Made by a program: the position numbers and the translations under genes. A stretch of 64,000 nt of DNA from Rhodoferax sp. (lineage in GTDB: Bacteria > Pseudomonadota > Gammaproteobacteria > Burkholderiales > Burkholderiaceae_C): positions 1 through 64,000 of the forward strand of contig JAUXOA010000029.1 of the NCBI GenBank assembly GCA_030682475.1. The letters are read 5' to 3'. Under the pieces are notes generated by a model that was not told the origin of the DNA, searched no databases, and saw only the letters and a list, made by a program, of their open reading frames with translations. Below are positions 38,911 to 57,571 of this stretch, one piece after another. Each line of letters begins with the position of its first letter. Position 1 is the stretch's first letter.

Positions 38911-39537
38911 CTAGGTCGACTTCAGGACCGACCATCCCGATTCAATGTGCTTGCGCATCGCGAGCATGGTTGCCGACGCATCACCCGTCGTAAGTGTACG
39001 CAGAATTTCGTCATGCTCCATAATGGCATCCTTGCCGCGGCCTTCTGCGGCATTGATCAGGTCGAAGGGATAGCGCGCCCAAAGGATCTGCACGAAATGC
39101 AAGGTCTGCGGCATCCCCGCGATGTCGTACATCCGGCGATGGAAGCGGTAGTTGACACCGCGCGCGGTTGCTTTTTCGCCGGTCTCGAACGCTGTTGCGA
39201 ATTCTTCCGCCAGTGATCGAAGCTCGGAGATGTCTTGCGAAGTGGCCTTCTCCACCGCCCCACGCACCAGTTGTACCTCGAGCAGCAGGCGCAGAGTCAG
39301 AATCTCTCCGGAGGCGGACGCGTCGAATGGAACCACGCGAGCACCACGGTACGAGTCTCCGCTGACATAGCCCTCGGCCGCCAGCAGTTTCAATGCTTCA
39401 CGCACCGGCGTGATGCTCAAATGCAGATGCTCGGCGATCTCCGCCTGCTTCAGACGGGACCCGCGCGGGTACACCCCGGAGATAATTCGCTCGCGCAGAT
39501 AGTCAGCGACCTGCTCTTCTTTTGTTCGATAGTCCAT
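38911..39537 (-). CDS. GntR-family transcriptional regulator with FCD domain (FadR subfamily)
   Basis: A 208-residue regulator with a winged helix-turn-helix at about residues 5-70 (VADYLRERIISGVYPRGSRL, QAEIAEHLHLSITPVREALK). An all-helical FCD ligand domain follows (LRLLLEVQLVRGAVEKA, FHRRMYDIAG, EHDEILRTL), whose Asp/His residues normally bind a metal and a carboxylate ligand. It is the last gene on the minus-strand side of the island. The ATGCAT-centred sites upstream of the hydratase and CoA-transferase genes are its probable operators. Confidence 0.85.
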   Translation of the reverse strand: MDYRTKEEQVADYLRERIISGVYPRGSRLKQAEIAEHLHLSITPVREALKLLAAEGYVSGDSYRGARVVPFDASASGEILTLRLLLEVQLVRGAVEKATSQDISELRSLAEEFATAFETGEKATARGVNYRFHRRMYDIAGMPQTLHFVQILWARYPFDLINAAEGRGKDAIMEHDEILRTLTTGDASATMLAMRKHIESGWSVLKST

Positions 39538-39557
39538 CTGCTAGGTAGTCCATCTGC
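39530..39557. repeat. Short direct duplication at the GntR start codon
   Basis: TAGTCCATCTGC occurs at 39530-39541 and again at 39546-39557, duplicating the GntR start codon with a 16-base period. The outer ATG is out of frame and would open a competing frame, so the duplication may lower or complicate initiation. Confidence 0.6.
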
Positions 39558-39681
39558 GGCAGCCTGACTGGCCGTGCCGGGCCGTTAGTAATTCCCGGGT
39601 TGATCTCGAAATCAACTGGCCGCCCTGTTATGCCTCCTCGTTGGCGATCACCGATCAAACAAGTCAGCCCCCTGCCGGATT

Positions 39682-40491
39682 CTAAGCGATGCCATCTACC
39701 ACGGCAATGATGTGTCGCGCCCGATCCACGACTGGTTTGTCGATCATTTTGCCATCAACCGCGGTCGCGGCACCACCGCTGGCCTCGAACGCAGCGAGTA
39801 CGCGATGCGCCCATTCCACCTCTTCAGGCGAAGGCAGAAAAGCGGCGTTGACCGCGGCCACCTGGCTCGGATGAATACAAAGCTTGCCGCCGTACCCGAG
39901 CTGGCGTGAACGCAAACCGTCCGCGCGCATCTGATCCGCGTCACTGAAGTTCACACTCACGCCGTCGATAGGTGCTACCAGCCCGGCATGACAGGACTCC
40001 AGCACGATCTGCGTGCGGATGGCCGTCATCGCCTCGCCCTCATCCACGATCCCGCTTTCAGCAGCAAAGTCCACGCTGCCGAAGGCGATGCGTTCTAGGC
40101 CGCGCACGGCGGCCATCTGCCGCACCCCGATGTAGCCGCCTACCGTCTCCAGCAGCGCGATGATTCTGCGTCCGGGCAGTGCTGCGTGGGTCGTGCGTGC
40201 CAGCGACTCCTCATCAGCCTTCGGGAGCATCACGCCCGCGCCCGGCGCCGACTGGAGCATCCTCATGTCGTCCTCGTACCACTCGGTCTGTGCTGCGTTG
40301 ATACGCACAAAGGCTTGGCGGCCGCTTGCAAGCCATGCCGCGACCGCATCGCGCGCCTGCGCCTTGGCAGCAGGCGCGACGGCGTCCTCCAGGTCCAGAA
40401 TCACTTCATGGGTGCCGCTGGCCACCGCCTTGTCGAAACGATCCGGCCGGTGGCCCGGTACAAAAAGGAAACTGCGTGCGATGCGGCTCAT
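39682..40491 (-). CDS. CitE-like CoA-ester lyase (candidate citramalyl-CoA lyase)
   Basis: A 269-residue HpcH/HpaI-fold lyase with the short CitE layout. It has SFLFVPGHRPDRFDKAV at the start, VILDLEDAVAP (metal-site carboxylates), FVRINAAQT (substrate Arg), IALLETVGG (metal Glu), FGSVDFAAESG and the late CIHPSQVAAVNAAF. Proteins of this branch include (S)-citramalyl-CoA lyase, which splits its substrate into acetyl-CoA and pyruvate, and citryl-CoA lyase-like enzymes. With CoA-transferases and hydratases in the same operon, a lyase step at the end of a C5 or branched dicarboxylate route is likely. Exact substrate unknown. Confidence 0.8.
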   Translation of the reverse strand: MSRIARSFLFVPGHRPDRFDKAVASGTHEVILDLEDAVAPAAKAQARDAVAAWLASGRQAFVRINAAQTEWYEDDMRMLQSAPGAGVMLPKADEESLARTTHAALPGRRIIALLETVGGYIGVRQMAAVRGLERIAFGSVDFAAESGIVDEGEAMTAIRTQIVLESCHAGLVAPIDGVSVNFSDADQMRADGLRSRQLGYGGKLCIHPSQVAAVNAAFLPSPEEVEWAHRVLAAFEASGGAATAVDGKMIDKPVVDRARHIIAVVDGIA

Positions 40492-40498
40492 ACGTGCC

Positions 40499-41080
40499 TC
40501 ACTCGAAAACGACTTCTTCCGACGTGGTGATGCGGCAAAAACGCTGCAGTCCCTTGACCGCGTTCTCGTGTTCCTCGGTCGACAACCCGCAGCAGGCGTC
40601 TTCCAGCACCACCATCTCATAGTCACGGTCGTGGCCTTCGCGCACGGTGGCCTGCACCACCGCGTTGGTGGAAATGCCGGAGCAGTAGATCCGGCGGATA
40701 CCGTGGGCGCGCAGGATGGCCTCCAGGCTGGTGCTGTAAAACGGGCTCACGCGATGCTTGACGATGTCGAAGTCACCCGGCTGCTGGCCCAGGTCCGGAT
40801 GCACCTCCGTGCCCCAGGTGTCGAGCTTGAAAATCCCATTCTTGCGGGCGCCGGAGAAGATCGGCGAATTGGGCGGGCATTCGCGATAGTCCGGCGAGAA
40901 GCCGACCCGCACGTAGCCGATGTGCAGGCCGGCGGCACGTGCCTTGTCCACGGCCCGGCGTGTGTTCTCCAGAACGCGACGGGTGCGCACCTGCTCACCG
41001 TAAGCCGCCTTGCCGTTCGGTCCGTCTACATGGACCAGGTCGTTCATCATGTCCAGCACCAGGTAGATGGCATCCTTCAT
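40499..41080 (-). CDS. Isochorismatase-fold hydrolase lacking the catalytic Cys
   Basis: A 193-residue protein of the isochorismatase/cysteine-hydrolase superfamily. Asp10 (LVLDMMND) and Lys108 (DIVKHRVS) fit the first two members of the usual Asp-Lys-Cys set. At the third position, in SGISTNAVVQATVRE, the residue is Ala140 rather than Cys. Family members with Cys are amidases; those without it, such as isochorismatase itself, hydrolyse other bonds. Amide hydrolysis is therefore doubtful and the reaction is open. It lies seven bases before the CitE-like gene and downstream of two CoA-transferase genes in one operon. Confidence 0.75.
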   Translation of the reverse strand: MKDAIYLVLDMMNDLVHVDGPNGKAAYGEQVRTRRVLENTRRAVDKARAAGLHIGYVRVGFSPDYRECPPNSPIFSGARKNGIFKLDTWGTEVHPDLGQQPGDFDIVKHRVSPFYSTSLEAILRAHGIRRIYCSGISTNAVVQATVREGHDRDYEMVVLEDACCGLSTEEHENAVKGLQRFCRITTSEEVVFE

Positions 41081-41126
41081 GAAACATTCCTTTCGTTCGT
41101 TCGATGGGTGCGCGCTTGCCGCTCGC

Positions 41127-42326
41127 TCACAGTATGATTTCTCGGGCTTCGAGGTCTGCGCGCTGCGCCGAGCTCAGGCCCAGTAACTCGCCAAAAACGT
41201 AGTTCTCGTCTTCGCCAAGCGCCGGGGTCAGCCTGCGAATGCCGACGTCCTTGGTGCGACCGAACCGCGCCGGAGCACCCACGGCCAGCCGTTGCGGGAT
41301 GCCGGGTGCGCTCACCTTGGTCAATACCTCACGGGCATGCAGATGCTCATCCGAGGCAATGTCCTGCATGTTCCATGAGACGTGGGCACTAATGCCTGCC
41401 TGCTGCAGACGTGTGGCCGTGGCATCCGCCTCGCTGTGCGCAAGCCATTGCGTCACCAACTGATCCAGGTCCTGGCTGTGGCGCAGCCGCCCTTGTGTCG
41501 TGGCAAAGCGCGAATCCTCGCAGACCTCCCCCAATACCCGCGCCAGCGTCTGCCATTCGGCATCGTTGCGGATGGCCAGTGTGAGCCAACGGTCGGCTTG
41601 GGACGTCGCGTACACACCGTGCGGCGCCATGCCGAGGTCGCCATTGCCGGGTCGCACCGGCGTGATGCCGACGCTGGCCTGGACCAAAGCCTCGCCGATC
41701 ATGGCCGAGGCGACTTCTCGCGCGGCCAGATCGACGTGCTGCGCCTGCCCGGTGCGTCGGCGCTGATGCAAGGCAGCCATCGTGGCCACTGCAGCGTGCA
41801 AGCCCGCGGTGTGGTCCATCACATGGCGTATCTCCACCGGCGGGCCGTCGCTGTAGCCTGTCATCCAGCCCAGGCCGCCCCATGCGCCAAACAGGGGCGC
41901 GTAGCCGGAGAAGTGCGAATCAGGGCCGGTCTGGCCACATGACGACAGGGATAGCATGACGATATCCGGCTTGCTTTCGCGCAGTTCGTCGAAACCCAGG
42001 CCTAGGCGTTTCATCACCCCAGCCCTGAAGCTCTCGGCAGCGATGTCCGAGATGGACACCAGCCGCTTGGCCAGCGCAACCGCCTCGGGCTGCTTGAGGT
42101 TTAGCCTGACAGACAACTTGTTGGCTGACACCTGATCAAATGTCGCCGCTGACATGCGGCCATAGACGGCATGCGGCTTGCGAAACGCGTCGGGCCGCGT
42201 CTTGCTTTCGATCTTGATGCACTCCGCACCCAGCTGCGACAGCAGGTGCGTGCAGAAGGGACCGGCGGCATGGATGGTGAAGTCGGCGATGCGCACGCCG
42301 GCCAGCGGGGCTTGGGCGCGGCTCAT
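41127..42326 (-). CDS. Family III CoA-transferase (CaiB/BaiF), catalytic-Asp subunit
   Basis: A 399-residue enzyme of the formyl-CoA transferase family, which moves CoA between carboxylic acids through an aspartyl-CoA intermediate. It opens with LAGVRIADFTIHAAGPFCTHLLSQLGAECIKIE (given here as the family's start region). The catalytic aspartate matches Asp171 in IRHVMDHTAGLHAA. The ATG at 42326 overlaps the stop of the next CoA-transferase gene upstream (ATGA). That gene lacks the Asp, so the two look like paired subunits of one enzyme. Confidence 0.85.
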   Translation of the reverse strand: MSRAQAPLAGVRIADFTIHAAGPFCTHLLSQLGAECIKIESKTRPDAFRKPHAVYGRMSAATFDQVSANKLSVRLNLKQPEAVALAKRLVSISDIAAESFRAGVMKRLGLGFDELRESKPDIVMLSLSSCGQTGPDSHFSGYAPLFGAWGGLGWMTGYSDGPPVEIRHVMDHTAGLHAAVATMAALHQRRRTGQAQHVDLAAREVASAMIGEALVQASVGITPVRPGNGDLGMAPHGVYATSQADRWLTLAIRNDAEWQTLARVLGEVCEDSRFATTQGRLRHSQDLDQLVTQWLAHSEADATATRLQQAGISAHVSWNMQDIASDEHLHAREVLTKVSAPGIPQRLAVGAPARFGRTKDVGIRRLTPALGEDENYVFGELLGLSSAQRADLEAREIIL

Positions 42327-43489
42327 GCTTGCACCTCCTTCGCCAACTCGTTCAGCGCTGGCACCCGAGCGCCGCCTTGCAGCGGCGTGCAGCGGAACTG
42401 GAACGGCGCCAGCAACATATCGACCTGTTTGCCACTCTCGAGCGTAACCGGGGCAAACAGCCCGCGCGCGCGCTCGTGCTCGCCCTGCACCACCTCGACC
42501 GGCGTGCGGTACTTGCCCGCCGGCACACCCAGCTCCTGTGCACGTGTCACGATTTCCTCCACCGGGTGTTTTGCCATCCACTCGCGGATGTGGCGATTGA
42601 TCTCGTCGCCGCGGCGACTGCGCTCCAGCGGGTCGCGCAGCGCCTCGTCTTGGGCCCACTCAGGGTGACCCAGCACCTCCACCAGCGAATTCCACTGGCG
42701 ATCCTCCAGCGTGAGCAGCTCGATAAAGCCGTCGCTCGTCTCAAACACACCGCCGTAGCGGAAACTTCGTGTCGTGCGATGTTCGAGCGAGCCGTCACCC
42801 AGGCGCTGCAAGGCGAAGGCGCCGACTGCGAGCACCGCGTCCTGTACCGAAACGTCCACATACTGGCCACCCGATACAGGCGCCGTCCACCACGCGGTGA
42901 GCGCGCTCAGCGCCGCCATGGTGCCGCCCTGATAGCCGGAAAAGTGACCGTAAATTTTCAGCGGGGGTCGGTCCGGAAAGAGCTCGTTGGACAGCCCGTT
43001 GGGCAACAGGAAGCCTTCGCCGCCTGCATGCAAAAGGTTGACTTCTTCGCCGTCCCAGTCGGCCTTCGGGCCGCTGGCACCAAAGGGCAGCACGCTCACG
43101 TGCACCAGCTTCGGGAAGCGCTCAGCGAGCGCCTGCGGCTCCACGCCCTGCACCGCACGTTGCCGCACCGGCGTGTCGTCAATGAAGATGTCGGTGCCCG
43201 CCAACTCTCGCTCCAGCACGGCACGCCCCGTTGGTGACTCCGGGTCACAAACGAGGCTGCGTTTGCCGACAGCGAGGTACGCGAAGAGCGCGCTTTCACC
43301 CGTGTCGTCCAGCAGCGGTGCCGCCTTGCGTAGCGGCGAGCCCGCGCCGGGCTCCAGCATCACGACGTGCGCACCCATGGCGGCCAGCAGCCGGCCCGCG
43401 TAAGCGGCTGCCACCGTGCGCGAACGCTCGATGACACGGCAGCCAGACAGTGGCAGCGATAGAGATTGCGACACATCGTTGGAAAGCAT
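42323..43489 (-). CDS. Family III CoA-transferase homologue lacking the catalytic Asp
   Basis: A 388-residue CaiB/BaiF-family protein. It keeps the fold landmarks (SGCRVIERSRTVAAAYAGRL, MGAHVVMLEP, FGASGPKADW, VSGGQYVDVSVQDAVL). At the position of the catalytic Asp the local alignment gives Ser184 (GHFSGYQGG). It probably forms a heteromer with the product of 41127-42326, with which it overlaps by four bases. Heteromeric family III enzymes such as benzylsuccinate CoA-transferase BbsEF are a precedent. On its own it is unlikely to be an active transferase. Confidence 0.8.
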   Translation of the reverse strand: MLSNDVSQSLSLPLSGCRVIERSRTVAAAYAGRLLAAMGAHVVMLEPGAGSPLRKAAPLLDDTGESALFAYLAVGKRSLVCDPESPTGRAVLERELAGTDIFIDDTPVRQRAVQGVEPQALAERFPKLVHVSVLPFGASGPKADWDGEEVNLLHAGGEGFLLPNGLSNELFPDRPPLKIYGHFSGYQGGTMAALSALTAWWTAPVSGGQYVDVSVQDAVLAVGAFALQRLGDGSLEHRTTRSFRYGGVFETSDGFIELLTLEDRQWNSLVEVLGHPEWAQDEALRDPLERSRRGDEINRHIREWMAKHPVEEIVTRAQELGVPAGKYRTPVEVVQGEHERARGLFAPVTLESGKQVDMLLAPFQFRCTPLQGGARVPALNELAKEVQA

Positions 43490-43524
43490 TTGAACTCTCT
43501 TGCCGAATTACTGATGCCTGCCGT

Positions 43525-44733
43525 TCAGCGGGTCACAGGGAGCTCGAGATCAATGGCGGAGCCATCGATGAAGGCGGGCAGCTTGACGTCGCGCGAGGGC
43601 AGCGCCACGGTCGCGATGCCCGGCGTGGTCACCTCCCCACGCTGGTTCTCTGCGGCGATTTCGATGTCCACGAGCCCGACATTGTCCTTGACATATGTGC
43701 GCACGACCTTGCCCTTGCAGAACGTCGTGTCGCCCATGATGTTGAAGCGACGCATTTCGGTACGCACCCGCTTGAGCACGCCTGCGTCGCCCATCCAGTT
43801 GGTGATGAGCGAGCACATCCAGGAGGAGCGCTGCGGACCGTAGTCATAGGTGCCGGGCACGCCCACTTCCTTGGCGACCGACTCGCGATGGTGGCCGATA
43901 CCGGTGTATTCCACGCCGCCGCCTGCTTCCGGGTTGCGGAAGAAGTGACCCGGGTGCTTGACCGCCGCCTGCAGCACCACGCCGTGGGTGTGACCGCGAC
44001 CGCAGCCGACCAGGAAACCCATGGTGTCCATCAGCGACAGCGGGCCGCGGGCAATGGTCGGCAGTTCTTCGCCGACTTGCACTTCTTCCCAGTAGCGCAC
44101 ATTGGCGCCGCGGATGTTCTTGGGCTCGTCCAGCACGATCTGGTCGATGCGGTCGTGCTCTTCATTGGTGTACCCGTGCTGCTCGATTTCCTTGTACTTG
44201 CCGGCGTCGCGGGCGGCCTTGCGTTCGTGGCGGGTGCAGGTACCCAGACCGCGTGCCACCAGCTCGCTGCGCTGGTTGTAATAGCTCGCTTCCACGTACT
44301 GCAGCACCAGACGACCGGAGAACTTGCTTTCCTTCTCTTGGACGCCAACCACGCGCTCAATGGCGGTGATGCGGTCACCCGGACGAATGTGGCGGAAGAT
44401 TTCCCAGTCGTTACCGGCATAGAAGCCGTGTACGCCCGGCAGGCCCCAGCGGGTGCGACCCAGCCAGCCGAAGGCCATGGGGAACATCGGGTGGCCGACC
44501 ATGCTGCCGTAACGGGTGGCGGCGCCGTAGCCGATGTCCCTGTACAGGGGGTTCAGGTCGCCGATGCCGTTGCACCAATTGCGCAGCGTGTCTGCAGTGG
44601 CGTCCTGCAGGTAGGGGCCTTCCGGTCGCAGATGCAGACCTATCATCGCCCGTGCGTCGGCAATCGCCTGATCGGTAATGAGGCCTTCCGCAGGCGCATT
44701 GCCCACGTCGCTCTGGGTGCTGGTGTTACTCAT
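43525..44733 (-). CDS. Double hot-dog MaoC-like hydratase/dehydratase
   Basis: A 402-residue protein with two hot-dog folds. The N-terminal one (about residues 20-180) carries WCNGIGDLNPLYRD, a hydratase-like substrate region. The C-terminal one (about 210-400) carries VQVGEELPTIARGPL, GHTHGVVLQAAVKHPGHFF and a late DNVGLVDIEIAAENQRGE strand. Such proteins hydrate or dehydrate acyl-CoA thioesters. It is the first gene of the long minus-strand operon (hydratase, two CoA-transferases, isochorismatase-like, CitE-like, regulator). A candidate operator with two ATGCAT boxes lies 31 bases upstream. The ATG at 44733 follows AGGAG; the longer frame is rejected. Confidence 0.75.
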   Translation of the reverse strand: MSNTSTQSDVGNAPAEGLITDQAIADARAMIGLHLRPEGPYLQDATADTLRNWCNGIGDLNPLYRDIGYGAATRYGSMVGHPMFPMAFGWLGRTRWGLPGVHGFYAGNDWEIFRHIRPGDRITAIERVVGVQEKESKFSGRLVLQYVEASYYNQRSELVARGLGTCTRHERKAARDAGKYKEIEQHGYTNEEHDRIDQIVLDEPKNIRGANVRYWEEVQVGEELPTIARGPLSLMDTMGFLVGCGRGHTHGVVLQAAVKHPGHFFRNPEAGGGVEYTGIGHHRESVAKEVGVPGTYDYGPQRSSWMCSLITNWMGDAGVLKRVRTEMRRFNIMGDTTFCKGKVVRTYVKDNVGLVDIEIAAENQRGEVTTPGIATVALPSRDVKLPAFIDGSAIDLELPVTR

Positions 44734-44763
44734 GTTTAAACTCCTGTTGATAAATTTAATGTG

Positions 44764-44780
44764 GAATGCATGATGCATTC
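44764..44780. promoter_or_regulatory. Candidate GntR operator upstream of the hydratase-CoA-transferase operon
   Basis: GAATGCAT-G-ATGCATTC, an inverted repeat with 8-base arms and one central base. It shares the ATGCAT core with two sites in the 45.9-46.1 kb divergent promoter, so one island regulator probably binds all three. Confidence 0.6.
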
Positions 44781-44833
44781 TTTTTGGAGAAAAGTCAACG
44801 CTTGGGACGTAACTTCTTCCGTTTTGATGCTTC

Positions 44834-45057
44834 TTATTCGATGCGGATGTCAGCCGCCTTGATGATGCCACCCCACTTCAGCCGTTCTTCTTTCACAAAC
44901 GCGCTGAGTTGGGCCGGCCCCATGAACAGTGGTTCGACGCCAATGTCCAGCATCCTGCGGCGTGTTTCGGGGTGCTGCAGTGCACGCTGGATGTGTTCGC
45001 TCATCGTCTGAACAGCCTCCGACGGCGTGCCGCGCGGGGCAAACAAGCCGTCTCATT
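44834..45057 (-). pseudogene. C-terminal remnant of a Bug-family solute receptor
   Basis: About 74 codons ending in a proper stop read GLFAPRGTPSEAV, then a helix HIQRALQHPETRRRMLD, IGVEPLFMGPAQLSAFV and KEERLKWGGIIKAADI. This is the last quarter of a tripartite tricarboxylate transporter periplasmic receptor (Bug family), where G-x-F-A-P-x-G-T-P is conserved. No N-terminal part, signal peptide or ribosome site is present, so the gene is broken. An intact Bug receptor lies at 48048-49031. Confidence 0.8.
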
Positions 45058-45087
45058 GGGGTTGATCTTTGTGCGCAGCGCGCGCTG

Positions 45088-45930
45088 TCAGCGGAATGCC
45101 GCCGTTGCGGACATCGCCAGTTCGCCATCGGGACCGCGCGCCCACAGTGCGAGCGTACCGTCTTCCGCTTCGCGGCCTTCCAGGCGGAAGGCGCGATCCA
45201 CGAACAGCGGGCTGACACCGCGGAAATCAAAGCGCGCCAGCGGCCGACCACCGCCATGCTCCATGGCGAACTGCTGCAACAGCGTGGCTGTCAGTGGGCC
45301 ATGGACCACCAGGTTGGGGTAGCCTTCTTCTTCACGCGCATACGACTGGTCGTAATGAATTCGGTGACCGTTGAAAGTCAGTGCGGAATAGCGAAACAGC
45401 AGGGTCGTGTCGGGCTCGACACTGCGGCTCCATTGCGCCTGACCATCATACGGTTCAGGCGCCGGTGCGGGCGTTGCACCAGCGGGTGTGGCCTCGCGAT
45501 AGACAATGTCCTGCTCCTCCGCGATACACTGCTTGCCCTCGCAACTGATGATGTGCTCCACAGTCACAAACCATAGCGAGCCACGCTTGCCGACCTTGTT
45601 CTCCACTTTCTGGATCCGGCTGCGTCGTGTGGCCTTGGCATCGACCGGCAGGTCGGCCAGGTAGCGCACCCGACTACCGGCCCACATACGCTTGGGCAAC
45701 TCGATCGGCGGCAGGAAGCCGCCGCGTTTCGGATGCCCATCTACACCCAGGCCGCTGCGGCGAACGGCAGGGTTGAAAAAGAGCCACTGCCATCCGGGCG
45801 GCAGGGGCTGGCCCGGTTCCGGCGCGGTGTTGAGGTCGAAAGTGGCGGCCATGGCCTGCACCACAAGCGCGAGCACGCGCTCCGTGCGCTTCTCCTCGCG
45901 GCCAACCCAAGCATCGTAGGTAGCGGTCAC
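45088..45930 (-). CDS. MaoC/HTD2-like hydratase (candidate mesaconyl- or itaconyl-CoA hydratase)
   Basis: A 280-residue protein with two hot-dog halves. The N-terminal half includes PPGWQWLFFNPAVRRSGLG and GGFLPPIELPKRMWAGSRV. The C-terminal half includes FRYSALTFNGHRIHYDQSYA, with the hydratase-like Asn/His pair, and LVVHGPLTATLLQQF. This layout matches the HTD2-like group that contains mesaconyl-C4-CoA hydratase and itaconyl-CoA hydratase, which form citramalyl-CoA. With a CitE-like lyase and CoA-transferases in the island, a C5-dicarboxylate route is a reasonable but unproven reading. It is divergent from the CoA-transferase at 46140. Confidence 0.78.
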   Translation of the reverse strand: MTATYDAWVGREEKRTERVLALVVQAMAATFDLNTAPEPGQPLPPGWQWLFFNPAVRRSGLGVDGHPKRGGFLPPIELPKRMWAGSRVRYLADLPVDAKATRRSRIQKVENKVGKRGSLWFVTVEHIISCEGKQCIAEEQDIVYREATPAGATPAPAPEPYDGQAQWSRSVEPDTTLLFRYSALTFNGHRIHYDQSYAREEEGYPNLVVHGPLTATLLQQFAMEHGGGRPLARFDFRGVSPLFVDRAFRLEGREAEDGTLALWARGPDGELAMSATAAFR

Positions 45931-45953
45931 GTTTTCTCCTTGATTTGCGATTT

Positions 45954-45983
45954 TTTAGTGTCAAACACTTTAGTGTCAAACAC
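45954..45983. promoter_or_regulatory. 15-bp tandem repeat containing GTGTCAAACAC, candidate operator
   Basis: TTTAGTGTCAAACAC occurs twice head to tail. Each copy holds the inverted repeat GTGT-CAA-ACAC. It lies 24 bases before the hydratase start (minus strand) in the divergent promoter region and is distinct from the ATGCAT sites nearby. Confidence 0.55.
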
Positions 45984-46020
45984 GACAGTAATCAAAATTA
46001 GCATTTACCGGGCTTGATAC

Positions 46021-46032
46021 ACAATGCATTGT
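46021..46032. promoter_or_regulatory. Candidate GntR operator, divergent promoter, site 1
   Basis: ACAATGCATTGT is a perfect 12-base palindrome between the divergent hydratase (-) and CoA-transferase (+) genes. It shares the AATGCATT core with the site at 46105-46119 and ATGCAT with the site at 44764-44780. Confidence 0.6.
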
Positions 46033-46104
46033 ATAGAATTTAAAAACCGCCAAAAATCAGGGTTTTCCCTGACAAAAAATGGTTGTTTTCAAGTTTTCGG
46101 TAGA

Positions 46105-46119
46105 TATACAATGCATTCG
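46105..46119. promoter_or_regulatory. Candidate GntR operator, divergent promoter, site 2
   Basis: TATACAATGCATTCG repeats the ACAATGCATT of site 1, 87 bases further on and about 21 bases before the CoA-transferase start, where a bound repressor would block initiation. Confidence 0.55.
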
Positions 46120-46139
46120 TTTAATAGATATTAGTCATC

Positions 46140-47369
46140 ATGCAACACCCTCCCCTTGCTGGAAAACGCGTCATTGAACTGGGCACCATGCTGGCGGCGC
46201 CCTTTGCCACCCACATCCTTTCCCAGCTTGGCGCGGAGGTGATCAAGGTGGAACCTCCCTCCGGCGACCCCACACGCAGTCTGGTGCGAGGCGGCCCCAG
46301 TGGCACCTTCATCGCCTACAGTCACGGCAAGAAAAGCGTGTGCATCGACCTGGGCAAGCCCGAGGGACGGGCAACCTTCCTGAAGTTGCTCGCCAGTGCC
46401 GATGCCATGGTGCACAACCTCGCGCCTAAGGCCGCGCGCAAGCTCGGCGTCACGCGCGAAAACTGCGCAGCGGTCAACCCCAATCTGATCTACTGCCACA
46501 TCCGCGGCTACGCGGACGGCCCGCAGGAAGACGACCTGGCCTCCAATCCGGTGGCCGAAGCGGCCACCGGCGTGATGGAAGCCAACCGCGTCAATGGTCG
46601 GCCCAGCCGCCTTGGCCCCTCCTACCATGACCAGTTCGCCGGCGCCTATGCGGTCATCGGCATCCTCGCCTCGATGCTGCAACCCAAGGCGGGGCCAGGT
46701 GAGCGCCAGGTTGAAATCGGACTCTTCGAAACCGGCCTGCATGTGGCATCGCGCGACCTGGTGGGCGTGCAGCTCAAGACCAAATTGCTGGGCCGACCCG
46801 AGCGCGAGCCCCATGGCGAGTTCAGCATGCCCGGCTACGGCGCCTATCTCACGGCCGATGAGCGTTGGATCTATCTGCTGATCCTTAATGACGCACACTG
46901 GCTGAAATTCTGTGAAGCCATGCAGCTGCCGCAAGCGAACGACGAATCCCTAGCCACGCTGCGCCAGCGCAAGAAGGCGCGCGAACAGGTGGAGGAAATT
47001 GTGAAAGCCGCTGTTGCCGCGCACACCTTAGATGATGCCGAAGCCCGACTGAAGGCAGCCGGGGTGGGCTGCACGGAGGTGCTGCCCCTCGAGCGCGTGC
47101 TGGAGGCGCCGCAAGCGCACCAGCCCGGCAAGCTGCGAGCTGTGCGTTTCCGCGGCATGGACTTCGATGTGCCAGAATTCCCTCGGCTTGGTGCGGCAAA
47201 TGACGGTATTGAGACCCTCCCGCCGGCCGTCCTGGGCGAACACACCCTGGAGGTGCTGCAGTCTGCAGGGATCAAGCCGCAGGACTGCGAAGCGCTAATC
47301 TCTTCGGGCGCGGTGGCTGTTGCAAAGCCGGACAGCTTTGCATGGGCTGCGGTTCGTGCCGGGACCTGA
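46140..47369 (+). CDS. Family III CoA-transferase (CaiB/BaiF)
   Basis: A 409-residue CoA-transferase with the family opening LAGKRVIELGTMLAAPFATH, QLGAEVIKVEPP and the catalytic Asp at about residue 164 (GPSYHDQFAGAYAV). It is first in a plus-strand operon with a DUF2889 gene and a Bug receptor. It probably activates the imported acid using succinyl-CoA or acetyl-CoA as donor; itaconate and mesaconate transferases belong to this family. Unlike the 42-kb pair it has the Asp and no overlapping partner, so it may act alone as a homodimer. Operator-like ATGCAT sites sit in its promoter. Confidence 0.85.
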   Translation: MQHPPLAGKRVIELGTMLAAPFATHILSQLGAEVIKVEPPSGDPTRSLVRGGPSGTFIAYSHGKKSVCIDLGKPEGRATFLKLLASADAMVHNLAPKAARKLGVTRENCAAVNPNLIYCHIRGYADGPQEDDLASNPVAEAATGVMEANRVNGRPSRLGPSYHDQFAGAYAVIGILASMLQPKAGPGERQVEIGLFETGLHVASRDLVGVQLKTKLLGRPEREPHGEFSMPGYGAYLTADERWIYLLILNDAHWLKFCEAMQLPQANDESLATLRQRKKAREQVEEIVKAAVAAHTLDDAEARLKAAGVGCTEVLPLERVLEAPQAHQPGKLRAVRFRGMDFDVPEFPRLGAANDGIETLPPAVLGEHTLEVLQSAGIKPQDCEALISSGAVAVAKPDSFAWAAVRAGT

Positions 47370-47391
47370 GTGCACATACCCTGGAGCATCC

Positions 47392-47955
47392 ATGACCTGC
47401 AGCGTTCAGCTCGAAAAGCTCCATCATCGCCAAATCGACCTGCGGTTCTTTCGGCGCTCTGACGGGCTCTACGAGATGGAAGGTCGTCTCGTGGATAAAA
47501 AGAGCCACCCCTTCCGACGGGCGTTGGCAGGCGACGACCTGCCACCCGGCGTGCCAGTCCACGACATCGTTGTGCGCCTCGTCATAGACGAGTCCCTGCT
47601 GGTGCATGACGCGCTTGCCTTGATGCAGGCAACGCCATTCGCAACATGCCGCGGCGCGGTGAACACATTGGCCCCCCTCAAGGGGCTACGTATTGGCGCA
47701 GGCTGGAACAAACGGGTGCGCGAACTCCTCGGAGGAGCCGCATCTTGCACACACATCGTCGAGCTGCTCGGGCCGATGGCCACCACCGCTATCCAGGGAC
47801 TGGCGCCCCAGCGGCTCGCTCAGAGGGATGACCCAGCGAACGAGGAGGAACGGCGGGCCAAGGTGGACAGCTGCTACGCATACGCAGCCGAACGCGAAGT
47901 CGTGGCGCAGCTTTGGCCTCACCTGCACCGGCCGAAGCGAAACAGCTCAAGCTAG
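47392..47955 (+). CDS. DUF2889-family protein
   Basis: A 187-residue soluble protein. The opening MTCSVQLEKLHHRQIDLRFF is followed by YEMEGRLVDKKSHPF, VPVHDIVVRLVIDESLLV and CRGAVNTLAPLKGLRIGAGW, then a helical C-terminus with TTAIQGLAPQR. This matches the DUF2889 family, which I recall as often located next to acyl-CoA catabolic genes; its function is not known. The ATG at 47392 lies 22 bases after the CoA-transferase stop, so the two are cotranscribed. Confidence 0.75.
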   Translation: MTCSVQLEKLHHRQIDLRFFRRSDGLYEMEGRLVDKKSHPFRRALAGDDLPPGVPVHDIVVRLVIDESLLVHDALALMQATPFATCRGAVNTLAPLKGLRIGAGWNKRVRELLGGAASCTHIVELLGPMATTAIQGLAPQRLAQRDDPANEEERRAKVDSCYAYAAEREVVAQLWPHLHRPKRNSSS

Positions 47956-48047
47956 AGCAATGTCGACTTGCGCACCTGGCACAGATTTCTATGGACTTTC
48001 AGTGGCCGAAATTTAATATTTGACGTACTATTTTTGGAAGGTAAAAA

Positions 48048-49031
48048 ATGGAGATAAACATGTATGCTTCCCGCAAGTTGTTGAACTGGTTCTGCGTTAC
48101 CGCTCTGTGGCTATCGATGGCAGGCCACGCAAGCGCGAATTACCCTGATCGGCCGATCAAAATGGTGGTGCCTGTAGCGGCCGGCGGGGGCACCGACTTC
48201 ACTGCCCGTGTATTGGCCGAGAAATTGTCGGCTGCGCTCGCCCAGCCGGTGGTGGTGGAAAACCGCCCTGGTGCTTCGGGCAATATAGGCGTTCAGCAGG
48301 TGGCGCTGGCTGCCCCTGATGGCTACACGCTCGTCATGCCGATCACCTCGTTCCCGATCAATCCCAGCCTTCAGAAGCTGCCATTTGATACGGTCAAGGA
48401 CTTCTCGCCTGTGGTGCTTGCCGGTACCTTGCCGCTGGTCCTGGTTGTTCACCCCAACCTGCCAGCCCGCACCGTCAGCGAGCTGATTACCTTGGTGAAG
48501 AACAAGAAAGAGTCGATCAATTTCGCGAACTCCGGTAACGGGACGACCGCGCACCTGGCGGGGGAGTTATTCAATCGCATGGCCGGCATCAGGATGGTCA
48601 GCGTGAATTACAAAGGCGGTGGCCCTGCGGTCACCGACCTGCTGGGGGGCCATGTCCAGGTGTATTTCTCCACCATTGCCGCTGTCTCGCAACACATCGA
48701 GGCAGGCCGCTTGCGTGCCTTGGCCGTGACGGGCACAACGCGAAGCCCCGAATTGCCCAACGTGCCCACGGTGGCCGAATCCGGCTTGCCCGGCTTTGAT
48801 GTGACGGCCTGGTTCGGCATCTTTGCGCCAGCCCGTACGCCGCCTTCCGTGATCCAGCGCCTCAACGCCGAGCTCGTCAAGATCCTGGCGATGCCAGATG
48901 TGCGGCAAAAGCTTGCCAACCATGGCGTACAGCCTGGCGGAGGAACGTCCGAGGCGCTGGGCTCGTTCTTGATCAGCGAGATAGACAAGTGGGGCAAAGT
49001 CATTCGCGAGAGCGGCATCCGAGCTGAATAA
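48048..49031 (+). CDS. Bug-family periplasmic solute receptor (tripartite tricarboxylate transporter type)
   Basis: A 327-residue exported binding protein. After a signal peptide (residues about 1-30, ending in ASA) come the conserved [72 protein letters not shown] and [12 protein letters not shown] segments. Bug proteins bind carboxylates such as citrate, glutamate or aromatic acids in the periplasm. The membrane partners (TctA/TctB-like) are not in the window, so uptake must rely on partners elsewhere or the protein is an orphan sensor. ATG at 48048 or 48060 can start it; each has a GGAG-type site. Confidence 0.9.
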
Positions 49032-53055: not shown

Positions 53056-53592
53056 CTATTCGTCGTTGCGCGGTGGATCGGGGTCGTGGTCCCAGTTGCT
53101 GTCGGGCTGAGGCACCTTGAGCATCCAGGCCTTGACCAGTGCCACGTGCTCGCGTTCTTCCTCTTGCAACGCCAGTGCTGCCTTGCGCACCGATTCGACT
53201 GTGGCCACACTGGCCAGGTGCGCGAAAAAGCGCTCGGCACGTTCTTCATTGGCCAGCGCCAGTTGCAGCACATGCCAGGGCTGCATCAGGTAGTGCACGT
53301 CGTCGATCGGGGCGCTCTCGGGCGCTTCAAAGCCTTCAAACACCGGCGTGGTGACGTGCGCGGGGGCTTCTTTCCAGCCCATCTCGGCCATGATCTGGGT
53401 CGCGTGCTTGCCTTCGATGACGGCCATCTTGCGAAACCACTCGGCCACTTCGGGGTTGTTGTGGGTTTCCATCATGTCGGCGAACTCGTTGTAGCGTTGC
53501 GCCGCATCGAGCTCCATGACCAGGGCTTGCGCCATGAAGTCGTCGAGCGTGGCAGGCAACGGCGCGCTGCCGGGTGAGGTGGGCTGGTTCAT
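53056..53592 (-). CDS. Ferritin-like di-iron protein
   Basis: A 178-residue four-helix protein with two Glu/His sets typical of ferritin-like or rubrerythrin-like proteins: MELDAAQRYNEFADMM and EGKHATQIM in the first half, NEERAERFFAHLA and EEEREHVALVKAW in the second. It could detoxify oxygen or peroxide or store iron for the oxygen-sensitive enzymes next door. The start overlaps the korB stop (ATGA), so it is translationally coupled to KorB. Confidence 0.78.
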   Translation of the reverse strand: MNQPTSPGSAPLPATLDDFMAQALVMELDAAQRYNEFADMMETHNNPEVAEWFRKMAVIEGKHATQIMAEMGWKEAPAHVTTPVFEGFEAPESAPIDDVHYLMQPWHVLQLALANEERAERFFAHLASVATVESVRKAALALQEEEREHVALVKAWMLKVPQPDSNWDHDPDPPRNDE

Positions 53593-54455
53593 AGCGCAAA
53601 CTCCGATTCGAGGTCGCTCACACTACAGCGCGCCTGGCGCACCGAGGCCGTATACGGTACGCGGTCGCCGGCGTAGAGCACACCGATGTTGAAGCCGTCG
53701 TCCGTCATCAGACGGCGTGCGGCGAGAGCGGCGTCGTCCGTGGCATCGACTGCTGCCGGTCGCACCAGCTTGCGCCATTCGCGCTGCTCGGGCCGGAAAG
53801 TGACACAGGGGCTCAGAATCTCGACAAACGAGAAGCCTGGATGCTTCATGGCCTGCGCAATGATGGCCGCCGTGCCATGGAGGTCGCCGGCAAAGGCACG
53901 CGCCACGAAGTTGGCGCCCGACGCCAGCGCCACCACCAGCGGGTGGAATACGCGCAAGCCGGTGCCGCCGGGCGACAGCTTGGAATCCCAATCCGGTTCG
54001 GTCGTCGGTGAGGGTTGCCCTTTGGTCATGCCATACACGTGGTTGTCCATCACCAGGTAGGTCATGTCCACGTTGCGTCGGCAGGCGTGCAGAAAGTGGT
54101 TGCCACCGATCGAGTAGCCATCACCATCGCCACCGGCGACCAGCACCTGCAAGTCCGGCCGGGCCACTTTGAGGCCGGTGGCTGCGGCCAGCGAACGGCC
54201 ATGCACGCCGTGAAAGCCGTAGCATGTGGTGTAGGCGGGAATGCGCGACGAGCAGCCAATTCCCGAGACCACCGCGCAGTCCTTGGGCGGCACGCCCAGG
54301 GTGGCCAGCGCCTTGGTGACCGCGCTCAGCACGGTGAAGTCACCGCAACCCGGGCACCAGATCGGTTTGTAAGCAGACTTGAAGCTCGCAGCGCTCAGGC
54401 CGACTGATGCGGGCGCGAGTGCCGGTGCAGCTTCTTCATTCATGACGTCGTTCAT
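53589..54455 (-). CDS. korB: 2-oxoglutarate:ferredoxin oxidoreductase, beta subunit
   Basis: The TPP-binding subunit of the enzyme that oxidises 2-oxoglutarate to succinyl-CoA and reduces ferredoxin. The 288 residues show WCPGCGDFTVLSAVTKAL, the TPP motif GDGDGYSIGGNHFLHACRRN and MDNHVYGMTKGQPSPTT. The ATG at 54455 overlaps the korA stop (ATGA) and has GGAGG before it; the ATG at 54470 gives a five-residue extension and is less likely. In Thauera-type benzoate metabolism, KorAB feeds low-potential electrons to benzoyl-CoA reductase, and the bcr genes lie just beyond. Confidence 0.92.
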   Translation of the reverse strand: MNDVMNEEAAPALAPASVGLSAASFKSAYKPIWCPGCGDFTVLSAVTKALATLGVPPKDCAVVSGIGCSSRIPAYTTCYGFHGVHGRSLAAATGLKVARPDLQVLVAGGDGDGYSIGGNHFLHACRRNVDMTYLVMDNHVYGMTKGQPSPTTEPDWDSKLSPGGTGLRVFHPLVVALASGANFVARAFAGDLHGTAAIIAQAMKHPGFSFVEILSPCVTFRPEQREWRKLVRPAAVDATDDAALAARRLMTDDGFNIGVLYAGDRVPYTASVRQARCSVSDLESEFAL

Positions 54456-56212
54456 TTTCCATTCCTCCACTCAAGCAGGGCAGTCAAAAGTTCTCCGGGG
54501 CGCAGCGGTAGCGGTCCGGGGCGGTGGTAAGTCGAAGGCGGGACCGGGAAATCGTAGTAGCCCCGCAAGTAGCGATAGAGCTGGGCGCCGTGGTTCTGCT
54601 CCACCACGATGATGCGCTTGGCGCCTTGCAGTGTTTGCGCCATTTGCCCGGGTCGGGTCGGTGCCAGCAGGCGCAGCGCGATCAGGCGCATGTCCACGCC
54701 GGTGGCCTTGGCGCGTGCAATCGCCTCGCGCACCGGGCCGGATGCCGAGCCAAAGGTGATGACCACCGCGTCCGCGTCGCCTTCGATGTCGGCCCAATAG
54801 GGACCATAGTCATGCAGATCGAGCTTGCGTTGGCGCTTGTCGAGCTGTAGCACATGGTCGCGTGACTGGCTGCTGGGAATGCCCGCTTCCGAATGCTCCA
54901 GGCCATCGGCGGTGTAGGTCACACCTTCGGTGCCGGGGATCGCCATGGGCGACACGCCCGAGGCCGTATTGCGGTAGCGTTTGTAGTCCGGGGTGTTGGC
55001 TTCAACAGTGAGTCGCTGGGCGCTAAACTCGGAATCCACCGGGCGGTCGATGATGGCGCGCGATTGACCCATGAACTGATCCGACAGCACAATGGCGGGC
55101 GCTTGCAAGGCCTCGGCCAGATGCACCGCCCACTGCGTGGCGCCCAGGCAATCGCCAATCGAGGTCGGGGCTACCACCAGACGCGGTGCGTCGCCATGCA
55201 GGCCGCTCACCGCAAAGGACAGGTCGCTTTGTTCACTCTTGGCCGGAATGCCGGTTGAAGGCCCGCCGCGCATCACGTCCACAATCACAATGGGCACCTC
55301 GGAAGCCACCGCCAGGCCAATCGCTTCGGTCATCAGCGCCAGACCTGGCCCCGAGGTGGCGGTCAGCGAGGGCACGCCGCCATAAGATGCGCCGATGATC
55401 ATGTTGATGGAGGCCAGCTCGTCTTCGGCCTGCAGCAAGGTGCCGCCCACCTCGATCAGCTTGGCCGCCATCCACTCCAGCACTTCGGTAGCGGGTGTGA
55501 TCGGGTAGGCCGCCACAAAGCGCACGCCACCCCGAATGGCACCAAAACCCGCCGCCTCGTTGCCGCTGATCATCCAGCGCGGATTGACGTTGAGCGCGCC
55601 CACTTGCAGTTGCGCCATGGGGCCACCGTCTTGTGCCAGCTTGGCCGCAATACCGGCCGCCGCCGCGGCGCCAGCCGCCACCGCTTTCAAATTGGCCTCC
55701 AGCGTGGCAGGTTTTTTCCATGACTCCCGAACCGCATCCAGCAAGGCCTGCAGCGGCAGCCCGGCCAGCGTCCCCGACAGGCCCAATGCAATCATGTTGA
55801 CCCAACTGCCGGGAATGGCCTTGGCCATTTTCTTCATGCTCAAGGGGGCGTAGCGCGCGCCGGTGGCCTTGAATACTTCCGGCGCCTCGCCTTCATCGGG
55901 GTCGCCAATCAGCACGCTGCGCGGCCCCAGCACGATCTCATCGGCAAAGCGGTTCACGTTCTGCCAGTCAATGGCCAGCAGCAGATCAAAGCCGTCGTCC
56001 AGCGAACTCATGGGTTGAGGCCCCAGGCGCAACAGGGCAGCTGCCTCGCCGCCGCGAATTTGCGGCCCGCTGGTGCGCACCATCAATCCATAGGCCCCCG
56101 CCTTGGCGGCGGCGGCCAGCAAGACGGTGCCGGCTGTCATCACGCCGCTGCCACCGCTGCCCGCCAGTGCGATCGACACACTGGTGGGGGCTGTTGTGGT
56201 TTGTGTTTGCAT
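54452..56212 (-). CDS. korA: 2-oxoglutarate:ferredoxin oxidoreductase, fused gamma-alpha subunit
   Basis: A 586-residue fusion of the gamma domain (about residues 1-190, SIALAGSGGSGVMTAGTVL, RTSGPQIRGGEAAALL) and the pyrimidine-binding alpha domain (about 205-580). Visible landmarks in the latter are ISGNEAAGFGAIRGGVRFV, AYPITPATEVLEWM and ATSGPGLALMTEAIG. The YPITPST-like segment is diagnostic of 2-oxoacid:acceptor oxidoreductases. It is the first gene of the minus-strand unit korA-korB-ferritin-like-ridA, with AAGGAG before the ATG. It is divergent from had across a 288-base region holding a repeat unit, an FNR-like box and a GGTA element. Confidence 0.92.
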   Translation of the reverse strand: MQTQTTTAPTSVSIALAGSGGSGVMTAGTVLLAAAAKAGAYGLMVRTSGPQIRGGEAAALLRLGPQPMSSLDDGFDLLLAIDWQNVNRFADEIVLGPRSVLIGDPDEGEAPEVFKATGARYAPLSMKKMAKAIPGSWVNMIALGLSGTLAGLPLQALLDAVRESWKKPATLEANLKAVAAGAAAAAGIAAKLAQDGGPMAQLQVGALNVNPRWMISGNEAAGFGAIRGGVRFVAAYPITPATEVLEWMAAKLIEVGGTLLQAEDELASINMIIGASYGGVPSLTATSGPGLALMTEAIGLAVASEVPIVIVDVMRGGPSTGIPAKSEQSDLSFAVSGLHGDAPRLVVAPTSIGDCLGATQWAVHLAEALQAPAIVLSDQFMGQSRAIIDRPVDSEFSAQRLTVEANTPDYKRYRNTASGVSPMAIPGTEGVTYTADGLEHSEAGIPSSQSRDHVLQLDKRQRKLDLHDYGPYWADIEGDADAVVITFGSASGPVREAIARAKATGVDMRLIALRLLAPTRPGQMAQTLQGAKRIIVVEQNHGAQLYRYLRGYYDFPVPPSTYHRPGPLPLRPGELLTALLEWRNGK

Positions 56213-56500: not shown

Positions 56501-57571
56501 ATGAGCATTGATGCCTACCGTTGGCAGATGAACCAACCCGGTGCGCCGTTCGAGCGGGTGGCGTTTTCCGCCCAGCCCACAGTGGATGAAGTTGTGGTGG
56601 CCATCGCCGGTTGCGGTGTCTGCCACACCGATCTGGGCTACTACTACGATGGCGTTCGCACCAACTCCGTGCTGCCGCTCACGCTGGGGCACGAGATCAG
56701 CGGCCATGTGGTGGCTGCCGGTGCGGGCGCCGAGGGCTGGATCGGCAAAGCAGTGATCGTGCCGGCCGTGCTGCCATGCGGCGAGTGCGACTTGTGTCAG
56801 CGCGGTCTGCAACCGATCTGCCGCGCGCAAAAGATGCCGGGCAACGACATTCAGGGCGGCTTTGCCTCGCATATTGTGGTGCCCGGTCGCGGCCTGTGCG
56901 AAGTCGATGAGCGCCGCCTTGCCGCCGTTGGGTTAACACTGGCGCAGGTCTCGATCGTGGCCGATGCACTGACCACGCCCTACCAGGCGGTGCGCCGCGC
57001 CGGTGTCACGCCCGGCAGCCTGGCCATTGTGATTGGTGCCGGTGGCGTCGGCGGCTACTGTGTGCAGGTGGCGCGCGCCTTTGGCGCCCAGGTGGTGGCG
57101 GTCGATGTCGATGATGACAAGTTGGCGGCGATCGCCCAGCACGGCGCCGCGCTCACCCTCAATGCCCGCAACCATGACACCAAGGCGTTGAAGGCAGCCA
57201 TCAATGCATTTGCCAAACAACAAGGCCTGCGCAGCACCGAGTGGCAGATCTTTGAGTGCTCCGGCAGCGCTGCCGGGCAGCTCTCGGCCTTTGGCCTGCT
57301 GGTGCATGGCGCCACGCTGTCGGTGGTCGGTTTCACCATGGACAAGGTCGAAGTGAGATTGTCCAACCTGATGGCCTTCGATGCACGCGCCCTGGGTAAC
57401 TGGGGTTGCCCGCCCGAGTACTACCCGGCGGCGCTGGAGCTGGTGCTCGACGGCAAGGTGCTGCTCGCCCCCTTTGTCGAGCAGCATCCGCTGGACAGCA
57501 TCAATGAAGTATTTCCCGCCGTACACCACCGCACCATCAAAAAGCGTGCGGTGCTGACCCCCACCGTTTGA
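56501..57571 (+). CDS. had: 6-hydroxycyclohex-1-ene-1-carbonyl-CoA dehydrogenase
   Basis: A zinc-type alcohol dehydrogenase-family enzyme that oxidises 6-hydroxycyclohexenoyl-CoA to the 6-oxo compound with NAD in anaerobic benzoate breakdown. The 356 residues carry the catalytic-zinc motif [10 protein letters not shown] (Cys41) and the GHEISGHV His64-Glu65. The structural zinc set is Cys93, Cys96, Cys99 and Cys107 (CGECDLCQ), and the nucleotide loop is [15 protein letters not shown]. The had-oah-dch-bcr order makes the assignment firm. AGGAGACAG precedes the ATG. Confidence 0.94.

Follow-up and report, generated by a model that had tools for sequence, protein, structure and literature searches.

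A conserved CoA-dependent gene cluster in Rhodoferax sp. that may extend the itaconate route by CoA transfer and dehydration

Gene content of the island

The 64,000 nucleotides analysed here (the window; Rhodoferax sp., assembly GCA_030682475.1, contig JAUXOA010000029.1, positions 1 to 64,000) carry at positions 38911-49031 an island of genes for coenzyme A (CoA) transferases, hydratases and a C-C lyase. All ten genes listed in a preliminary description of this DNA were found with open reading frames, and the gene set is real, far beyond a chance assembly. The cluster is real and conserved, abridged in the window, and probably a variant on the citramalyl-CoA theme.

Most of the enzymes are encoded on the minus strand, namely a CitE-like C-C lyase resembling citramalyl-CoA lyases (39682..40491; HpcH_HpaI 3.4e-28), an isochorismatase-fold protein without the nucleophilic Cys (ICH, 40499..41080; Pfam 8.7e-43), the family III CoA-transferase CT1, presumably the catalytic subunit with Asp171 (41127..42326; CoA_transf_3 9.4e-91), its family III-like partner CT2, which has no catalytic Asp (42323..43489; CoA_transf_3 3.4e-64), the 402-aa double hot-dog (de)hydratase MaoL (43525..44733; FAS1_DH 8.7e-18), and a full-length, 280-aa HTD2-like hydratase of the itaconyl/mesaconyl-CoA hydratase-like kind (45088..45930; assigned by the solved structures 8huc/8khg, an orthologue alignment and a tree). 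The CT1 and CT2 genes overlap by 4 bases. Divergent from these genes run those for CT3, a DUF2889 protein and a Bug receptor; CT3 is a family III CoA-transferase with the catalytic Asp (46140..47369, plus strand; CoA_transf_3 3.8e-84) and a presumed entry activation step. Start sites of the CitE-like, CT1, MaoL and DUF2889 genes were trimmed by hand.

Conservation of the cluster in related loci

Related loci were collected by a scan with a MaoL alignment, from which the best 80 of 200 encoding loci were retained; all were recovered through MaoL, so that its presence is by selection. In these 80 loci MaoL is 75-94% identical, and the hosts are alpha-, beta- and gammaproteobacteria ranging from Variovorax and Paraburkholderia to roseobacters, Bradyrhizobium and Novosphingobium. 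Co-occurrence was counted in the 61 of the 80 loci that span at least 20 kb (19 shorter loci were dropped), with a per-gene identity threshold chosen by the analyst. MaoL, CT2 and CT1 stand together in 61/61, so the search for the same gene set in other genomes that had been proposed in the preliminary description returned a conserved neighbourhood. HTD2 follows closely with 60/61, as do ICH (59/61) and the GntR regulator (58/61), and CT3 is found in 51/61 and CitE, at a minimum of 45% identity, in 47/61. Most relatives also carry genes that precede this core in function, as we propose below: a dehydrogenase resembling 3-hydroxyisobutyrate dehydrogenase and tartronate-semialdehyde reductase (HIBADH-like; 51/61), a short-chain dehydrogenase/reductase (SDR; 50/61), a Liv-type binding protein (50/61) and the ABC importer genes LivH/M/G/F (40-41 of 61).

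A lactonase gene occurs in 52/61 loci, being of the SMP-30 type in 30 (best solved relatives 8djf/7ris) and of the metallo-beta-lactamase (MBL) type in 22, two unrelated folds that are never found together; among the nine loci without a counted lactonase, the three with extended flanks (L185, L186, L196) all show SMP-30. Similarly, a SucC-like ligase subunit is present in eight of the 61 loci, seven times instead of CT3 and once beside it, such that CT3 or SucC is found in 58/61; a SucD-like partner of SucC was confirmed in L113. Unrelated enzymes thus swap in for the lactonase and for CT3, which suggests from gene content that the pathway really includes lactone opening and the thioesterification of a small diacid. 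In a partly annotated listing of families in the flanks (a merged family of 571 open reading frames was left unannotated), no further recurrent family could be recognised, and no oxygenase or gene for aromatic rings stood out as recurrent. This widespread bacterial cluster is apparently unstudied.

HTD2 and CitE

The preliminary description had read the island as a CoA-dependent carboxylate pathway on the transferase, hydratase and lyase logic of itaconate and mesaconate degradation, and the likeness of HTD2 and CitE to enzymes of that route speaks for it. The best solved relatives of HTD2 are the itaconyl-CoA hydratase structures 8huc/8khg (E ~4e-68), and the protein carries the conserved itaconyl-CoA-hydratase-type motif FRYSxLTxNGHRIHYD. 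CitE is closest to 8khl/9nzb, annotated as '(probable) acyl-CoA lyase beta chain' (E 5e-48). When the positions conserved within each group were compared with itaconate-type neighbours, 67 were alike and 2 different for HTD2 (64 vs 14 sequences), and 41 alike and 0 different for CitE (56 vs 7 sequences). The comparison loci were assigned to the itaconate type by gene content and similarity, 7/14 of the hydratases having a CitE-like gene in the stretch, and the sphingomonad HTD2 rows as well as L043, L058, L201 and L210 were left out. Since these conserved positions are common to the itaconate-type neighbours, the lower half of the cluster probably makes acetyl-CoA and pyruvate.

Trees of both proteins, as the preliminary description had suggested, were built from every second orthologue. 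The window-type HTD2 proteins form a group of 33 apart from the itaconate-type sequences, with support of 90/98, below the strong-support mark of the tool. The CitE tree did not resolve: the split between the group and the itaconate-type lyases is weak (57/56), and we therefore do not use this tree as evidence for a different substrate.

CoA-transferases and MaoL

The catalytic Asp of type III CoA-transferases, as stated in excerpts of PMC9196870, is present in 79/79 aligned CT1 sequences and 46/46 of CT3, and in 0/79 of CT2. The closest solved chain to CT1 is 9fn0_B, a subunit of benzylsuccinate CoA-transferase (E 4e-56). We infer that CT1 and CT2 form a heteromer.

The MaoL model is a double hot-dog fold (pLDDT 89) in common with MeaC and a Chloroflexus MaoC dehydratase. 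It superimposes on 5i7n with Z 27.5 (3.3 A, 278 aligned), and, within a broad fold class, on MeaC 8hgn with Z 23.0 (3.4 A, 285 aligned, 14% identity) and on 4e3e with Z 21.8 (3.5 A, 290 aligned, 16% identity); 5i7n, 4v12, MeaC (8hgn), 4e3e and PaIch (8huc) align over 235-290 of the 402 residues.

Isochorismatase-fold and DUF2889 proteins

An Asp-Lys-Cys triad is a feature of the isochorismatase-fold cysteine amidohydrolases; isochorismatases proper are without the Cys. The isochorismatase-like protein named in the preliminary description is present and keeps the fold, and in the alignment D10 and K108 are retained, but V141 occupies the position of the nucleophile in 72/72 sequences, where RutB reads TNVCV. 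ICH therefore shares fold, Asp and Lys with RutB and biuret-hydrolase cysteine hydrolases and differs from them by Val for the nucleophilic Cys; lacking this residue, it is not an ordinary amidohydrolase.

The DUF2889 gene (47392..47955, plus strand; Pfam 1.1e-34) was likewise listed as part of the island, and it is indeed present in the window, yet we regard it as accessory: a DUF2889 gene is found anywhere in the genome in only 17/32 cluster-bearing genomes, and it stands beside CT3 in 5/8 betaproteobacterial stretches fetched (L177, L178, L179, L183, L184) and beside CitE in L182. Across 25 sequences, C86, C119-T-H121, H57 and D35 are invariant. A Foldseek search with the model (pLDDT 92) gave no match at E <= 0.001. 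The model shows borderline similarity to IscU/SufU-type scaffolds (Z ~6-8; 6uxe_D 7.8, 2.9 A, 97 aligned), and RnfG and aldehyde-oxidase domains score close to these values (Z 8.3-8.6). DUF2889 could possibly be a metal-binding protein, a borderline assignment from the model; a function by way of the IscU-type likeness was dropped in view of the borderline Z scores and the empty Foldseek search.

The last gene of the island encodes a Bug/TctC-type extracytoplasmic receptor (48048..49031, plus strand), 35% identical over 331 residues to Bug2 of L063. It has no NCBIfam match; the L063 relative matches Pfam TctC, and such receptors recur in related loci. Further to the right, at 53589-56212, two adjoining minus-strand frames resemble, by eye and from their translated starts, subunits of 2-oxoacid:ferredoxin oxidoreductases.

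Regulation

A GntR-family (FCD) regulator is encoded at the left end of the island (38911..39537, minus strand; Pfam GntR 4.8e-15, FCD 3.4e-22) and is presumed to control the cluster. The palindrome AATGCATT lies within 300 bp before MaoL in 44/61 loci, while 63 control palindromes of the same base composition reached at most 2; anywhere in the locus it is found in 58/61. In the window it occurs between the divergent HTD2 and CT3 genes at 46023..46030, within ATACACAATGCATTGTATAG, and again at 46110..46117, upstream of CT3; a further copy lies outside the island, at 57203. No exact AATGCATT precedes MaoL in the window, where only the overlapping half-sites GAATGCATGATGCATTC are present. Three matches in the window alone are unremarkable, as the shuffled mean is 1.31 and 9/100 shuffles reach three; the evidence for an operator is therefore the position common across the loci. 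The GntR protein is predicted from this pattern to bind AATGCATT-centred palindromes. That the island is one GntR regulon, as previously proposed, is likely in view of the putative operator motif at the cluster promoters of these 44 loci, and the motif offers a handle for seeking the regulon in other genomes.

The window copy and its genomic setting

The island had been taken as it stands for a candidate pathway. It does represent a conserved cluster, but an abridged copy of it, most relatives adding the importer, SDR, HIBADH-like and lactonase genes; the window copy is without the binding protein, SDR, HIBADH-like, Liv and lactonase genes that are common in relatives. The genome, with an estimated completeness of 94%, was searched for three of the missing proteins: the HIBADH-like enzyme has no close orthologue (best 32-33%), the Liv-type binding protein has none either (best 27%), and SMP-30 lactonase gave no match, in a search run without a positive control. 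Absence of the SDR, Liv and MBL lactonase genes is stated at the level of the window.

The 355-bp gap between MaoL and HTD2 holds the last 72 codons of a Bug/TctC receptor gene (44837..45052, minus strand), which tblastn aligned at 76% identity to residues 262-333 of Hydrogenophaga Bug2 (E 9e-34), and in relatives such as L063 a TctC-type receptor gene precedes MaoL. From this scar, the island reads as a deletion derivative in which the CoA-dependent core was left after loss of an import and entry module. L090 has a similarly reduced gene set, there without ICH. Survival of the core without the entry module suggests an ability to function as a single unit.

To the left of the island, trpB, trpA and accD were recognised by eye. 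Identity of this accD to its counterparts elsewhere in the genus reaches 97%, and trpB precedes accD in the seven relatives fetched. The 17-18 kb taken around accD from these seven gave no match to the proteins encoded to the right of the island. The host-type accD flank and the unmatched right flank thus indicate that the island lies on a contig of the host, at a site of rearrangement. A close MaoL is present in 1/89 genomes of the genus, the window's own, three others having only 36% relatives, and in 1/398 of a sample of the phylum; this patchy presence is consistent with horizontal acquisition. The same genome holds two more loci, C23 (L054) and C13 (L059), with HTD2, family III CoA-transferase, CitE and Bug receptors, and both resemble canonical itaconate clusters.

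Cousin loci

More distant relatives were found in five genomes of the order (L041-L045; MaoL 70-72%), where CT2 is present in 5/5 and CT1 in 4/5; in L041, where CT1 was not seen, the contig ends. L043 has an SDR gene between MaoL and CT2, and also carries ICH, CitE, HTD2, a SucC-like gene and a two-domain family III transferase. The last is an 872-aa open frame (L043:12578-15193) that joins two domains of the family III CoA-transferase type in a single chain, and long frames in L042, L044 and L045 likewise span two transferase matches. MmgE/PrpD proteins are encoded in cousin clusters (L043:1022-3396, L047:2961-4403), and L043 has an additional isocitrate-lyase/PEP-mutase family protein, which suggests a related pathway that starts from another acid. 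In one genome (L046 and L047, on G293:C11), two MaoL-CT2-CT1 copies lie ~14 kb apart, the second being followed by a CT3-like gene (61%).

Comparison with known pathways

According to excerpts of PMC12290011, itaconate degradation ends with the hydration or isomerisation of itaconyl-CoA to citramalyl-CoA, which a lyase splits into acetyl-CoA and pyruvate. The window cluster shares with this route (Ict-Ich-Ccl) a family III CoA-transferase, judged by gene type, an HTD2-like hydratase and a CitE-like lyase. It differs by the addition of MaoL, the CT1/CT2 pair with one catalytic Asp and the Cys-less ICH, and most of its relatives add an importer, SDR, HIBADH-like enzyme and an SMP-30 or MBL lactonase. 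A compact three-gene set without the MaoL block is not what we see, as the window and 61/61 loci carry MaoL-CT2-CT1; the earlier idea that the island goes beyond the three-step route therefore holds. No acyl-CoA dehydrogenase was detected among those genes of the window that were scanned with Pfam.

In the second half of the 3-hydroxypropionate bicycle, mesaconyl-C1-CoA hydratase, mesaconyl-CoA C1-C4 transferase, mesaconyl-C4-CoA hydratase and a lyase act in this order. The series that we propose has the same parts, a double hot-dog enzyme, a family III transferase, a hydratase and a CitE-like lyase, but the transferase of the cluster is a catalytic/non-catalytic pair that scores far below the cut-off for 2-methylfumaryl-CoA isomerase, and the cluster resides in Proteobacteria, the bicycle in filamentous anoxygenic phototrophs. 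In BbsEF-type pairs, two family III genes are adjacent and only one encodes the catalytic Asp. CT1 and CT2 are alike in this respect, only CT1 having the Asp and being closest to 9fn0_B, while partners of the benzylsuccinate pathway were not recognised in the cluster. The intramolecular CoA-transferase of the bicycle is described in excerpts of PMC9196870. Within one open-access library, we found no description of the combined gene set, nothing bringing together several compounds of the itamalate or paraconate type, nothing joining 2-methylerythritol catabolism with a CoA-transferase, and nothing joining mesaconyl-C1-CoA hydratase with a family III transferase.

Proposed route and alternative explanations

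Taken as a whole, the best explanation, which we advance tentatively and with rather less than even confidence, is that a catabolic cluster of wide distribution follows the route set out here, and that the island is its CoA-dependent core. The probable substrate of the cluster is a branched acid derived from a lactone, and its probable products are acetyl-CoA and pyruvate, with a CoA transfer and a dehydration added to the itaconate route. In the relatives, a lactone would be imported and opened by the lactonase, and its alcohol groups oxidised by the SDR and HIBADH-like enzymes to a small hydroxy-dicarboxylate of the itamalate or beta-methylmalate type; a paraconate- or itamalate-type lactone would fit the lactonase. 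CT3, or the SucCD-like ligase of some relatives, would load CoA onto this acid, and MaoL would remove water to give itaconyl- or mesaconyl-C1-CoA. The CT1/CT2 heteromer would then shift the CoA to the other carboxyl, HTD2 would hydrate the product to citramalyl-CoA, and the CitE-like lyase would cleave it to acetyl-CoA and pyruvate, with the GntR protein controlling the cluster through AATGCATT-centred palindromes. All substrates, the order of steps and any role of ICH are what we infer. If the entry acid is a hydroxy-dicarboxylate, dehydration needs CoA on the carboxyl near the reacting carbons, and the later hydration and cleavage require it at the far one; a second CoA-transferase step is then needed between the two hot-dog enzymes, as in the 3-hydroxypropionate bicycle, and such a shift from carboxyl to carboxyl would explain why there are more genes than a three-step route calls for. 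The fuller claim has a smaller share of our confidence and is on balance doubtful: that this is an undescribed proteobacterial pathway in which the lactone yields a C5 hydroxy-dicarboxylate, MaoL dehydrates its C1-CoA ester, CT1/CT2 isomerises the product to the C4 ester as a new heteromeric CoA-transferase of the intramolecular type, and citramalyl-CoA is cleaved, the chemistry of the 3-hydroxypropionate bicycle thereby serving heterotrophic degradation.

Several observations weigh against the proposed route. No enzyme of the cluster has a known substrate, and scores stay below the equivalog cut-offs: on TIGR04253 (2-methylfumaryl-CoA isomerase), CT1, CT2 and CT3 score 76.8, 44.8 and 45.4 bits against a cut-off of 725, and on RipC, CitE scores 154 bits against 375, although the itaconate-type lyases of the same genome are also below (155, 162). 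The fold matches of MaoL are those of a broad class at low identity (8-18%), and the residue after its GDxNP motif, usually His, is Tyr in 76/77 sequences that have the motif (80 examined). Sphingomonad clusters use a different HTD2 lineage in the tree. CitE at the 45% threshold is not near 14/61 clusters; the 14 genomes concerned all encode CitE-family proteins at 32-45%, some of which are possibly cluster members below the threshold. Within the 11-20 kb fetched, four of the five cousin loci have neither HTD2 nor CitE nor ICH, only L043 having all three, so that the presumed lower half need not lie near MaoL and the transferase pair. Finally, L048, L049, L051 and L052 (MaoL 54-56%) pair MaoL with ICH (52-56%) and have no CT1/CT2 in the stretch, a pairing which hints that ICH acts with MaoL and which the proposed route leaves unexplained.

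The cousin loci speak for a larger or substituted dicarboxylate, such as an aryl- or alkyl-succinate or itaconate, as the preliminary description had suggested; here the BbsEF-like pair would take a bulky acid and the lyase free a substituted 2-oxoacid. The kinship of CT1 to the benzylsuccinate CoA-transferase subunit, with one partner lacking the Asp, points the same way. We nevertheless consider this reading unlikely, since the conserved positions of HTD2 and CitE match the itaconate type and argue more for a C5 citramalyl-CoA lower half, the SucC-like subunits standing in for CT3 suggest a small diacid, and the partly annotated flanks yielded no further recurrent family. The island might also be an ordinary itaconate, mesaconate or methylsuccinate cluster with redundant transferases and hydratases, given that HTD2 and CitE are close to solved enzymes of the itaconate pathway and that this pathway, in excerpts of PMC9875883 and PMC12290011, has extensions including a lactonase. 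We find this improbable: the same genome already has the C23 and C13 loci, the window-type HTD2 proteins group by themselves, albeit below the strong-support mark, and MaoL, CT1 and CT2 stay together as a conserved unit, in most loci accompanied by the importer and lactonase genes.

The lactonase of the known itaconate cluster acts, according to excerpts of PMC9875883, on 2-hydroxyparaconate, and its product itatartarate accumulated as a dead end. A lactone of this type could be the entry compound, opened by the lactonase, with CoA transfer and CitE leading to acetyl-CoA and hydroxypyruvate, which the HIBADH-like enzyme would reduce; the dead end and the presence in most loci of a lactonase and a dehydrogenase like HIBADH and tartronate-semialdehyde reductase speak for it. 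It is a very unlikely account, though, because MaoL, HTD2 and the second transferase would not be needed, yet are the most conserved parts. We give similarly little credence to the view that the deletion has left the window copy in decay and without function. The receptor scar, the three entry-module proteins without a close orthologue elsewhere in the genome, and the half-sites in place of an exact AATGCATT before MaoL would agree with decay, but the core genes are all open over their full length, both sites between HTD2 and CT3 are kept, and a comparably reduced set is seen in L090. Pantoyl lactone, mevalonolactone, 2-C-methylerythritol products, the strigolactone D-ring and vitamin B6 intermediates were set aside as substrates by reasoning only, for lack of evidence.

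Implications

If the proposed route is followed, the CoA shift between carboxyls offers a testable reason why two hydratases and two kinds of CoA-transferase are found in one dicarboxylate pathway. The conservation of the block, with MaoL at 75-94% identity in the best 80 of 200 loci, points to a natural substrate for which we found no assigned route.

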